The notes beneath the pieces are model-generated. The model was given only the letters and a program-made list of their open reading frames with translations, had not been told where the DNA came from and ran no database searches. A stretch of 64,000 nt of DNA, from positions 1,709,501-1,773,500 of the forward strand of contig NZ_OY829944.1 in the NCBI RefSeq assembly GCF_963556105.2, given 5' to 3'. Below, piece by piece: positions 27,236 through 50,649 of this stretch (the stretch's first letter is position 1; each line of letters opens with the position of its first letter). The stretch is from an uncultured Tolumonas sp. Its GTDB lineage: Bacteria > Pseudomonadota > Gammaproteobacteria > Enterobacterales > Aeromonadaceae. The position numbers and the translations under genes are program-made.

Positions 27236-27254
27236 GTATGAACTATCTTCATTT
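27236..27254 (+). promoter_or_regulatory. LysR box (ATGA-N7-TCAT) upstream of AKR
   Basis: GTATGA-N7-TCATTT, a member of the dyad family shared by eight intergenic regions in this window. It lies only 14 bp before the ATG of the AKR at 27269, overlapping the untranslated leader, so binding here would block rather than recruit polymerase. Confidence 0.5.
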
Positions 27255-27268
27255 ACAGGCTTAAGATC

Positions 27269-28120
27269 ATGCAATCAATAAAATTAAATAATGGCCTAGA
27301 AATGCCATTACTGGGTTTTGGTGTTTTCCAAATGACGGATAAAGCTGAATGTGAGCGTGCCGTTGTTGATGCCATTGAAGCAGGCTATCGTCTGATCGAT
27401 ACAGCGGCTTCTTATCAAAATGAAACTGAAGTTGGTAACGCCATCAAAAACAGCGGTATTGACCGTAAAGAGTTGTTTGTAACGACCAAATTGTGGTTAC
27501 AAGATACCAATTATGAAGGCGCCAAAGCACAGTTTGCACGTTCTTTGAATCGTTTAAGACTGGATTATGTAGATCTGTATTTAATTCATCAGCCTTATGG
27601 TGATGTTCATGGTGCGTGGAGAGCCATGGAAGAATTACAGCAAGAAGGCTTAATTCGTGCCATTGGGGTTAGTAATTTCCATCCGGATCGTCTGGCTGAT
27701 CTAATTGCGTTTAATAAAACCGTGCCAGCGGTGAATCAGGTGGAAGTGAACCCATTCAACCAACAACTTCATGCAGTGCCTTGGATGCAAAGTAAAGGCA
27801 TTCAGCCGGAAGCATGGGCTCCGTTTGCGGAAGGGCGTAATGGTTTATTTCAGAATCCAAAATTGACCACCATTGGTGAAAAATACGGGAAGAGTGTAGG
27901 GCAGGTGGTTTTACGTTGGTTATATCAGCGTGGCATTGTGTCTCTGGCAAAAACGGTTCGTAAAGAACGCATGATTGAAAATTTGAATGTACTTGATTTT
28001 GCCTTGACTGAATTCGAGATACAGCAAATCACCGCAATGGACACCGCAACTAGCGCATTCTTCTCACACCGCGATCCTGCCATGGTCGAATGGCTTGCTT
28101 ATCGAAAACTGGATGTTTAA
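27269..28120 (+). CDS. Aldo/keto reductase, AKR5-like (2,5-diketogluconate reductase type)
   Basis: A 283-residue NADPH-dependent (alpha/beta)8 barrel reducing aldehydes and ketones. The catalytic tetrad is D44, Y49, K74 and H107 (DTAASY, TTKLWL, LIHQP). It is a close paralogue of the AKR at 40665, with identical tetrad spacing. It stands alone between an MBL hydrolase (divergent) and its own terminator. Physiological substrate unknown; methylglyoxal or other reactive carbonyls are plausible. Confidence 0.92.
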
Positions 28121-28139
28121 TGCTCATTTTTCGAAGACA

Positions 28140-28170
28140 AACGGCTTACTAATGTAAGCCGTTTTATTTT
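28140..28170 (+). terminator. Terminator of the AKR gene
   Basis: CGGCTTAC-TAAT-GTAAGCCG followed by TTTTATTTT: perfect 8-bp stem, four-base loop and T-run. Confidence 0.93.
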
Positions 28171-28178
28171 AATCGATA

Positions 28179-28277
28179 TTAGTTCAGGTGTTTTGTTTTT
28201 AGCCAATCAGACATTAACTCGGCAATTTTCTGATTGTTCAAATCTGACATTGGGAAGTGCGTGTTGCCATAAACACC
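28179..28277 (-). pseudogene. C-terminal remnant of an alpha/beta hydrolase
   Basis: The minus strand encodes about 32 codons ending in a stop (28179-28181) with GVYGNTHFPMSDLNN, then an IAELMSDWL helix and a short tail. This matches the end of an alpha/beta hydrolase family in which a GNTHFP-type motif carries the catalytic His. No upstream part of the gene is present in any frame, so it is a leftover of a deleted gene. Confidence 0.68.
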
Positions 28278-47805: not shown

Positions 47806-48382
47806 GTTGTTCTAACTCAGATGGAATCAATTATTGAAACGTTATTTTCTGATTATCTCTGAGTAATTGGTATCAATATAAATAAGCTAAAGAATCCCGA
47901 AAAATGGGATTTTATCTGTGTTGTTTTATAATTAATCGCACGAAAAAAATGCAACTGATGATCCACTAATGATGGATTTCATATTCATGAAATTTTATCA
48001 GAAAAACAATCCAAGACTATGGTGCTGTCCTATGGGTTCAAATATAACTTTCCATATTTGATGCGGTTTTTAAATTATTGTCTTTCTTTATCTGTAATTG
48101 TGGTTCGCGTTATATTACCTTCCTGACTCGCCGATAGGCCGTCCTATTTCGAATGAAAACTTGTAGATATGAGTATTGAGTTGAAAATGTATTAAAAAAC
48201 AACTAGATACTTGGGGTGATGCGAATAATTTTATTTTTATCGAATAGATAAAATTTAAATTCAATATAACCAATTGATTAAAAGTAGCTATTTCTTTCTT
48301 GACTCAAGGGCTTATTCGCATGGTCACTAGGCCAGACACCAACTAAGCAGCAATCAGAGGTGCTTAGTTAGCATCATAGCCA
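47806..48382. other. Intergenic segment without a recognised gene
   Basis: About 575 bp, AT-rich. A small hairpin AATCCC / GGGATT (47893-47911) and a perfect 9-bp inverted repeat AACTAAGCA / TGCTTAGTT (48341-48369), 14 bp from the stop of the Bcr-like gene, are present. The second may end that transcript although no T-run follows. No ATGA-N7-TCAT site is seen. Confidence 0.5.
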
Positions 48383-49594
48383 TTATTTTTTTAATCGATA
48401 GCTAATAAAACAAGCAAAAGATGATGCACCAATGATCCAACCCATCGTCCATGGCGTGCCGTCGGAAAACCAGCCCAATAGCGAGGTGCTGATGATCCCG
48501 CTGCCGTATTGCATAGCACCCGTTAGTGCCGATACAGCACCGGCTCGTTCTGGATAAAGCGATAATGTAGAGGCAACCGAATTCGCTACTATAAAACCGT
48601 TCATTGACCAGTAGATGAATAATGGGATCTCTAATCCCCAGAATCCGCCGAAATCGGTTCTGGCATTAATGATGATCAAAATACCACTGAAAATCAGGAT
48701 CATGACACCACACCGGAGCAAATGCGACATACCATATCTGCGCATCAAGCTGCGGTTAATATAATTAGCCGCTATGATCCCCAGAGTGTTCAGTGCAAAC
48801 ATCACACCATAGGTAGTTTGCGATAACTTGTAATACTGAATATACGCAAACGGGGAGCCGGCAATAAATGCATAAGCACCAAGATAAAAGAAAGCGCCGG
48901 TCAGAATGTAACTGATGAGTTTTTTGTCTTTCAGTAAAAACCAGTAATCATTTAACGATTGTGTAAGCGGTGTGGTGATCCGTTTTTCTTTGGCCAGCGT
49001 TTCGGGGTATTTATAAACTGTTACACACATGACGGCACCAGCCACGGAAAGGATCCAAAAAATAGTGTGCCATGAACCAATTCTCAGTATCTGCCCCCCG
49101 ATGATTGGCCCCAGCAACGGTGCAATTCCCATGATCATGATAAGCGTTGATAGCATATGGGCAGATCGTTCTGTGCTGTATAAATCCCGCACCATCGCAC
49201 GAGACAGTACTGGGCCGGTACATGCCCCCAATGCTTGTACGCAGCGCCAGAAAATCATCTGCCAGGATGTCGCTGACATGGCACAACCTACAGAACCAAT
49301 CAGATAAAGCAGCATACCAATCATGATTGGGATCTTCCGGCCATAGCGGTCACTGACAGGCCCCCAGATCAATTGACCGACGCTGAAACCGAGTAAGAAA
49401 CCAGAAATTGTCCATTCAACACTACCGGAACTACCAGCAAATTGTGCTCGCATAATTGGCAACGCAGGCAGATAAATATCTGTTGAAATAGAAGCAAAAG
49501 ACATCAAGGCGCTTAATATCAACAAAGTAAATAATTCGCTTTTATTTTTTATCGCCGGTGTGGGAATGCTGGACAAATTCAATGTAGTTTCCAA
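48383..49594 (-). CDS. Bcr/CflA-family MFS drug exporter
   Basis: About 403 residues and 12 helices. ISTDIYLPALPIM in helix 1 and GQLIWGPVSDRYGRK in loop 2-3 are hallmarks of the Bcr/CflA group; motif C reads APLLGPIIGG. The long frame opens with a TTG and no clear ribosome site, and the nearest ATG is out of frame, so the true start is uncertain. It follows an AKR gene on the same strand after 64 bp and may share its transcript. Confidence 0.87.
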   Translation of the reverse strand: METTLNLSSIPTPAIKNKSELFTLLILSALMSFASISTDIYLPALPIMRAQFAGSSGSVEWTISGFLLGFSVGQLIWGPVSDRYGRKIPIMIGMLLYLIGSVGCAMSATSWQMIFWRCVQALGACTGPVLSRAMVRDLYSTERSAHMLSTLIMIMGIAPLLGPIIGGQILRIGSWHTIFWILSVAGAVMCVTVYKYPETLAKEKRITTPLTQSLNDYWFLLKDKKLISYILTGAFFYLGAYAFIAGSPFAYIQYYKLSQTTYGVMFALNTLGIIAANYINRSLMRRYGMSHLLRCGVMILIFSGILIIINARTDFGGFWGLEIPLFIYWSMNGFIVANSVASTLSLYPERAGAVSALTGAMQYGSGIISTSLLGWFSDGTPWTMGWIIGASSFACFISYRLKK

Positions 49595-49658
49595 TGGCCA
49601 TGATTAAAGAAAGAAATAGACGATTTCAGGGAGTCATGACCCCCTGAATATTAAGGGA

Positions 49659-50537
49659 TCAGGCTAATTCGTTGTCTTCTGCTTTATAGACTTCAAAGGT
49701 TAATCGAGGCATTTTGGAGAAATCTGTCGAAGGTTCCCAATCATTGATCAGGGCTATGTTTTGCTCGACCTCGTGTGGCCAGCGCATGCCCACAATGCCA
49801 GCATGAACACGAGAATCAGATAAGACAAATTTCAAACTGACCTCATATAAATCACGAGCTTGTTGCCATTCCGGAGCAAGGATCTGAGCTTCGCGTTGGA
49901 AGATACCGGAGGTCATTGTGCGCATGCTGACCACACCCGCATTGACTTTTTCGGCTTCAATCAGAAAATGGCGTGCAGCGGCCTGATAAATAAAGTTATA
50001 AGCAATCTGATAAACGTCAATATTATCATTTTGCAGAAAGGGGATAACAGTCCATGGTTCTTCCGTCGTGATCCCAATATGGCCGATTTTTCCCGCATCA
50101 CGCAGTTCAATTAATGCGTCGAGTAGCCCTCCGTGCAAAATATGCTCAACCTCAGATGGTTGATACATGCGGCCATGAATTTGCAGAATATCAATATAGT
50201 CTGTTTGTAGGCGTTTCAGACTTTCATGGACACTCTTGATCACTCCTTGTTTATCATGTTCATACCAGACTTTGCTGGCCAGAACACAATCATCACGGCG
50301 ATGTTTCATCACTTTGCCAACCAGTGTTTCACTGAAACCATCACCATATGCAGGTGCGGTATCAATATAATTGATACCGGAATCAAGTGCCTTATTCAGT
50401 GTGGTGATAACAATATCACTTCCAGTTTCTGTTTTCGGATGCCAGTTTGTCGATTTATGCTCATACGCAAAAGCAGCCCCACCAATGGCAATTGGGGATA
50501 TCATCAGGTTGGTTCTGCCTAATTTTCTTTTGATCAT
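49659..50537 (-). CDS. Aldo/keto reductase
   Basis: A 292-residue aldo/keto reductase with tetrad D59, Y64, K89, H121 (IDTAPAYGD, LASKVWYE, LQIHGR). It belongs to the D-threo-aldose dehydrogenase/pyridoxal-related branch rather than the YakC-like group. A LysR box lies about 94 bp upstream, and a Bcr-like exporter follows downstream, suggesting a reduce-and-export unit (inference). Confidence 0.91.
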   Translation of the reverse strand: MIKRKLGRTNLMISPIAIGGAAFAYEHKSTNWHPKTETGSDIVITTLNKALDSGINYIDTAPAYGDGFSETLVGKVMKHRRDDCVLASKVWYEHDKQGVIKSVHESLKRLQTDYIDILQIHGRMYQPSEVEHILHGGLLDALIELRDAGKIGHIGITTEEPWTVIPFLQNDNIDVYQIAYNFIYQAAARHFLIEAEKVNAGVVSMRTMTSGIFQREAQILAPEWQQARDLYEVSLKFVLSDSRVHAGIVGMRWPHEVEQNIALINDWEPSTDFSKMPRLTFEVYKAEDNELA

Positions 50538-50630
50538 ACTTCGTCCATCGTTATGTTTTACGATTTTATCTCGATATAAACAAAGTATCGGATGATGAAC
50601 ATCACAACAAGACGCATGAAAATAATACGC

Positions 50631-50649
50631 CTATGAGCTAAATTCATAA
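50631..50649 (-). promoter_or_regulatory. LysR box (CTATGA-N7-TCATAA) upstream of AKR 49659
   Basis: Member of the shared operator family, 93 bp before the AKR start, in the usual position for LysR activation. Confidence 0.6.

Follow-up and report, generated by a model that had tools for sequence, protein, structure and literature searches.

The DNA considered here, called the window throughout, is a stretch of 64,000 nucleotides from an uncultured Tolumonas sp. (contig NZ_OY829944.1, positions 1,709,501 to 1,773,500), and gene and dyad positions refer to it unless another genome is named. It carries an array of AKR, SDR, MFS, flavodoxin and LysR genes, assigned to families with Pfam and NCBIfam, in whose intergenic DNA a short dyad, ATGA-N7-TCAT, is repeated. 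The gene set suggests that reactive carbonyl, quinone or aromatic compounds are reduced and exported, and the array genes, most of whose promoters are preceded by the repeated site, are probably switched on together, within what is predicted to be a coherent, genus-level LysR regulon. Five LysR proteins, LysR_A to LysR_E, score above the curated Pfam cut-offs for HTH_1 and LysR_substrate; the best NCBIfam match of all five is YafC (NF040888), at 127-173 bits and below the 470-bit cut-off, and none is therefore assigned to it. LysR_B (39647..40558), LysR_C (42164..43069) and LysR_D (46260..47165) are all encoded on the plus strand. The gene of LysR_B is divergent from that of an iron alcohol dehydrogenase (38262..39443, minus strand), for which the best NCBIfam match, below cut-off, is PRK15138, and LysR_D comes 147 bases after the gene of an MFS pump (44700..46112, plus strand), for which it is EmrB-type DHA2 efflux, likewise below cut-off.

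A preliminary description of this DNA had listed eight dyads, estimated that about two matches would occur in the window by chance, and proposed a single regulon. The eight dyads are where it placed them, with exact 15-mers starting at 27238, 28616, 30875, 36749, 39552, 42071, 44578 and 50633. The window contains 13 exact 15-mers, against a mean of 2.40 and a maximum of 7 in 100 dinucleotide shuffles. It had also named the density of the dyad as the property that should set the array apart, which it does, with 10 dyads in the 4,445 bases of array intergenic DNA (21 stretches; mean of 0.294 and maximum of 3 in 2,000 shuffles) versus 2 in the remaining 8,987 intergenic bases of the window. Of these 10, the matches at 27238 and 38117 probably do not function as operators. 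Among the 256 four-base dyads with N7 spacing, ATGA ranks first in array intergenic DNA (10 occurrences; runner-up 3), and when the spacer is varied from 0 to 20, N7 is the commonest (10), followed by N6 (4). The repetition is genuine and well beyond what chance would produce.

The dyads were aligned together with those of related genomes, giving a set of 29 sites from six Tolumonas genomes, oriented toward the regulated gene, that runs free of gaps across 55 columns. The T-N11-A pattern of the LysR-type transcriptional regulator (LTTR) box, recognized from the start, is present in all 29. The exact ATGA-N7-TCAT is found in 24, with ACAT in four of the others and TCAC in one, and an A occupies position -4 in every site. 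Conservation continues downstream of the dyad in a block that reads roughly TCAT-AAGTG-N2-ATCGNAAAT-N6-CATTAAT, within which a putative second element, conserved but degenerate, lies at about +21 to +38. Further downstream, in columns that were used neither for the alignment nor for the model derived below, agreement with a -10 hexamer is highest at +60, counted from the first base of the dyad, with a mean of 3.79 of 6 positions and at least 4 of 6 in 18 of the 29 sites; most other offsets lie near 2 of 6, and a second peak at +36 is the ATTAAT block itself. TATAAT-like hexamers had already been noticed before this count was made. Taking ATTAAT as a weak -35 with a spacing of 17 bases centres the dyad near -65 and puts the putative second element at about -42, and on the predicted start, at about +72, the dyad centre (+7) falls where an upstream box is expected. 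Boxes near -65 and -43 are given for LTTR operators in PMC5002191. From the alignment, the dyad is read as no more than the upstream part of a longer operator that has a direction.

The specificity of the composite operator was evaluated with a model, R1, made from 13 sites of other genomes and none from this genome. Over the 4.0 Mb genome, its six best matches (E from 3.9e-7 to 7.1e-4) are all promoters of the array, in the order SDR, LysR_B, MFS 44700, AKR 28732, LysR_C and AKR 29791, and these are the only ones in the genome below E=0.001. That a model trained elsewhere returns six array promoters as its top six bears out the proposal of a single regulon.

The strongest match (E=3.9e-7) lies at 36719..36773 on the minus strand, with its dyad at 36749-36763 and a -10-like CATAAT at +60, and faces the SDR gene 35796-36629, to which it is assigned instead of the MFS gene; dyads are also found there in genomes G003 and G010. 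The operator at 39542..39596 (plus strand, dyad 39552-39566, E=3.8e-6) precedes the gene of LysR_B and the downstream AKR gene 40665. The operator of MFS 44700, at 44593..44647 (plus strand, dyad 44603-44617, E=6.7e-6, TATAAT at +60), had been missed; its dyad starts 25 bases from the one at 44578 and outscores it toward the MFS gene. The operator of the AKR gene 28732-29697 spans 28606..28660 (plus strand, dyad 28616-28630, E=1.6e-5), and in G003 an AKR gene whose product is 90% identical has the same element in front, although the gene upstream differs. That of LysR_C spans 42061..42115 (plus strand, dyad 42071-42085, E=1.9e-4, TATAAT at +60), and its G003 counterpart is only a partial match (E=0.148) in which the exact dyad is not kept. 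The operator at 30845..30899 (minus strand, dyad 30875-30889, E=7.1e-4) faces the AKR gene 29791-30795; in the other direction, toward the CMD gene 30976, it is weaker (E=0.2), and the G003 orthologues of these two genes show weak matches toward both, with E=0.03 and 0.164.

Two further sites are weaker. Back to back with the MFS 44700 operator, that at 44548..44602 (minus strand, dyad 44578-44592) faces the flavodoxin gene 43785-44447 and the DUF4405 gene 43072, and scores 18.7 bits when the window is searched but drops to 14.9 bits (E=0.096) over the whole genome. The site at 50603..50657 (minus strand, dyad 50633-50647) is a possible operator of the AKR gene 49659-50537 together with MFS 48383, and its 14.5 bits (E=0.144) come from the dyad part only. 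The dyad at 27238..27252 (plus strand), ending 16 bases before an AKR start and devoid of the downstream half, reaches 4.3 bits in the window search and is unsupported as an operator. The placement of the dyads in promoters is otherwise supported; of the eight sites first listed, 50633 is weak and 27238 drops out. Of the remaining dyads, 56596 lies within a LysR gene, 62409 covers an apparent start codon, 58008 is in DNA where no gene is called, and 38117..38131 overlaps a terminator-like hairpin (38120-38143), which has ten pairs and a T-rich tail and follows the iron alcohol dehydrogenase gene.

Elsewhere in the genome, ranks 7 and 8 of the R1 search (E 0.022 and 0.063) precede an AKR and a CMD gene at a second locus near 1.83 Mb, where an MFS gene and a paralogue of LysR_D (48%) are also found. 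Copies of an IS-type transposase that are 99.7% identical adjoin the array (51278-52318) and this second locus (L104 3172-4212). Beyond what had been described, the operator is thus predicted to be oriented and composite, to recur at this second mini-locus, and to be carried by the genes of LysR_B and LysR_C as targets.

A large genome-wide regulon was considered and rejected. The genome contains 110 loose matches to the dyad and 40 to a strict form (ATGAR-N5-YTCAT), 30 of the latter outside the window (18 within open reading frames, ORFs, and 12 between them, as delimited by a simple longest-ORF caller), and none of these 30 adjoins a redox, pump or LysR protein of the array type (blastp, 1e-5). 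One of them falls in a TetR-like ORF. This negative is not entirely clean, given that the strict site C2:351646 is 86 bases from a weak HTH_1 (LysR-type) match and that the ORF following C1:84867 resembles a flavodoxin on visual inspection. A control with the reversed pattern (7 versus 40 matches) was not used as a null because start codons raise the frequency of ATGA and TCAT.

Among 61 genomes, R1 finds a match at E of at most 1e-3 in six, five of which supplied training sites. Matches outside the training set occur also in G002 (before an MFS gene), G005 (toward an MBL-fold gene) and G007 (before an AraC-type gene). The last is a composite operator in L216 (G007:C1, about 7069-7123, E=4e-6), and the best NCBIfam match of the AraC-type gene downstream of it is QhpR, below cut-off. 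The match at G007 1883076 (upstream of an AraC-type gene), two weak ones in G005:C2 and those in G005:C1, G012, G030 and G051 were kept out of the regulon, and model matches in other families, with E of about 0.003-1, were for the most part taken to be noise. The possibility that R1 detects a generic LTTR box was also rejected: 80 loci around LysR genes, a set from which loci known for strong operators were excluded, gave just 6 matches up to E=1, the best at 15.4 bits. Two of the 6 are the G007 MBL promoter, one direction of which was later included in the 29 sites, two are a dyad on the MATE side in G013 (L069), and another (L094, 12.4 bits) precedes an MFS gene of G007 that adjoins a LysR_D-like gene.

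The operator is conserved through considerable rearrangement. G003 has a rearranged version of the array, in which the genes read as orthologues are 61-93% identical, and it retains dyads before the AKR, SDR and LysR_B genes and before the flavodoxin/MFS pair, where two dyads 25 bases apart are found just as in the window. Orthologues of LysR_B (70-81% identical to that of the window) have the dyad in front in five of five genomes; no pair differs in its eight bases, and average identity is 47% in the spacer, 48% over ten bases upstream and 56% over thirty downstream. The alignment retrieved for LysR_B held two records from Tolumonas, the other four being weak and distant. A megablast of 27000-47500 against E. 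coli genomes and plasmids gave no match, and a search of genome contigs with LysR_C matched 26 stretches, none of them a relative.

Which LysR protein reads the operator was judged from the distribution of the regulators and from their recognition helices. The near-identity of the helix-turn-helix regions of the LysR proteins claimed earlier was overstated, full-length identities being 107/300 between 42164 and 46260, 89/295 between 42164 and 56319 and 135/296 between 46260 and 56319; the recognition helices of LysR_C (TQSALSH) and LysR_D (SQSALSH) are nonetheless alike. In addition to G000, LysR_D is found (64-84% identical) in G002, G003, G005 and G007, that is, in five of the six operator-bearing genomes. 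G002 has two operators, one of them directly after its LysR_D gene. Another genus of the family has, in four genomes, such a dyad between a LysR_D-like gene (38%) and the MATE-like gene after it, a label that comes from reading the protein and not from a family search; in G013, this dyad overlaps the end of the LysR_D-like ORF. In G096, which belongs to a third genus, three weak sites of search R2 (E 0.0013 to 0.02), kept out of the 29-site set, are located at L254 13705 and 19471 and at about L255 1353 (G096:C65). One of them precedes an MBL-like gene and one lies beside a LysR gene with the helix SQSALSH, and perhaps they mark a related array outside Tolumonas. The product of this LysR gene is 57% identical to LysR_E and 51% to LysR_D, which slightly raises confidence in LysR_D or a relative and slightly lowers it for LysR_B.

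On balance, we consider it fairly probable that the dyad belongs to a two-box, oriented activator operator of the LysR type bound by an array LysR, and that this binder is LysR_D, the best candidate, or a close paralogue that shares its recognition helix, LysR_C being the second candidate. Several observations weigh against this assignment. The 29 sites were partly picked by a dyad search, and a few of them were oriented according to fit; the putative second box, besides being degenerate, has a spacing of N9 instead of N7; the start of the LysR_D gene itself lacks an adjacent operator; the gene of LysR_B has one in five of five genomes; and no LysR_D orthologue was detected in G010, which has two operators and in which the best LysR_D-like protein is about 36% identical. 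Many LysR proteins with nearly the same helix also sit in loci free of the operator, so that the helix alone is indecisive.

The alternative that survives best, though still tentative, is that several LysR paralogues (LysR_C, LysR_D, the LysR of the second locus and perhaps LysR_B) would read one operator, each in response to its own inducer. Similar operators beside different paralogues, in the array, at the second locus and at the LysR_D-like loci of other genera, are consistent with it, but a single cross-acting regulator already explains the pattern within one genome.

It is rather unlikely that LysR_B is the regulator and activates both its own gene and the array. In its favour, LysR_B is present in G003, G005, G007 and G010 in addition to G000, five of the six operator-bearing genomes and among them the one in which LysR_D was not detected, and all five of its genes have the operator in front. 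Nonetheless, LysR_B was not found in G002 in spite of the two operators there, and given that G002 is 99% complete and G010 87%, the gap of LysR_D is the weaker of the two. The downstream half, moreover, faces LysR_B and not the divergent alcohol dehydrogenase gene, which makes LysR_B a likely target, and as the regulator it would have to be positively autoregulated. Its helix, SPQSVSR, differs, and its 39% relatives in other Tolumonas adjoin a second N7 dyad, TTCC-N7-GGAA (L139 2461, L140 2503, L141 1440/2551/2625). This second dyad is also present in intergenic DNA of the array (27044 and 36646) and may serve a different LysR as its operator. A site of another kind is probably read by LysR_A too, given that its orthologues in another genus of the family (63%; L163 6043-9448 in G024 and L164 4770-6882 in G028) are divergent from an iron alcohol dehydrogenase gene in loci where the operator is missing.

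Control of the array by MetR itself, acting through MetR boxes, is highly improbable. The box of metE-metR in E. coli and Salmonella, a 15-bp ATGAA-n5-TTCAT at -63 and -41 according to PMC5002191, is nearly the same dyad, and the genome encodes a MetR-like protein (L269). However, TGAA-N5-TTCA fits just 6 of the 29 sites and is missing from the 3 kb MetR-like locus, the invariant A at -4 falls outside the 15-bp box given there, and the array genes are not methionine genes. In a sister genus, a MetR-like LTTR that has the helix SQSALSH in common with LysR_D (best NCBIfam match MetR, 210 bits, below cut-off) is encoded by a gene bearing ATGA-N7-TCAT dyads, with others beyond it, which speaks for LysR_D and its relatives as binders. 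Those after the MetR-like gene are tandem dyads 21 bases apart (L256 1297/1318, L257 5987/6008, L260 5933/5954 and L261 6578/6599), and in L256 a methionine synthase gene is downstream of them. Finally, an origin by chance or as a by-product of start codons in AT-rich DNA is likely for single cases (62409 and 56596, and probably 38117 and 27238) but very unlikely for the set as a whole in view of the shuffles, the N7 peak, the conservation, the hold-out search and the -10 phasing.

Returning to LysR_D or its close paralogue as the binder, we infer a mechanism in which the dyad would be the upstream box, at about -65, and the second box, about 23 bases downstream near -42, would abut the weak -35. 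One array LysR would bind both boxes as a tetramer and, upon sensing an inducer that is probably a reactive aldehyde, a quinone or an aromatic compound, would bring RNA polymerase to the promoters of the AKR, SDR, flavodoxin and efflux genes. Transcription of LysR_B and LysR_C would be activated as well, so that a small cascade would turn on the detoxification array. The operator helps to sort the five local LysR genes into likely targets or binders, and the array offers a small system in which operator sharing and cascades among LysR paralogues can be tested; its 55-base operators could serve as reporter elements to find the inducer.

The comparison with known systems begins with the iron alcohol dehydrogenase, whose best match, PRK15138, we take to be YqhD. 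The aldehyde response YqhC-YqhD of E. coli is governed by an AraC-type regulator, YqhC; the array is alike in its iron alcohol dehydrogenase, within the limits of a match below cut-off, and differs in that the neighbouring regulator is a LysR. LysR regulators are often tied to a single divergent gene next to them. In this putative detoxification array about eight promoters are linked by one operator, which persists through the reshuffling of genes between species. By protein sequence, the best relatives of solved structure are CrgA (PDB 3hhg) for LysR_B and 3t1b/3szp, chains deposited as LysR family regulators, for LysR_D. A Pseudomonas protein named CrgA has mirror-repeat sites (PMC6422896). 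Operators of the OxyR, CynR and IlvY type, 15-bp inverted repeats near -65 and -43 (PMC5002191), share the predicted geometry of the boxes and differ in the letters of their half-sites (ATAG, ATAA and TTGCA).

The regulon appears to be new, as had been proposed: no description of it was found among the papers listed, as judged from titles and the starts of abstracts. The motif is not, being a slight variant of a known box. With the published MetR operator, the operator of the array shares the core ATGA-N7-TCAT and the predicted two-box geometry. It departs from the MetR box in that ATGAA-N5-TTCAT is found in 6 of the 29 sites and ATGAA-N5-CTCAT in 10, and in the outer A at -4 that all 29 possess, and from the MetR regulon in that its targets are AKR, SDR, MFS, flavodoxin and LysR genes instead of methionine genes. 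It is conceivable, if doubtful, that one MetR-like operator is a common address for the paralogous LysR_D, LysR_C and the LysR of the second locus, which would also activate one another's genes, so that many inducers would act on the one array by way of one site.

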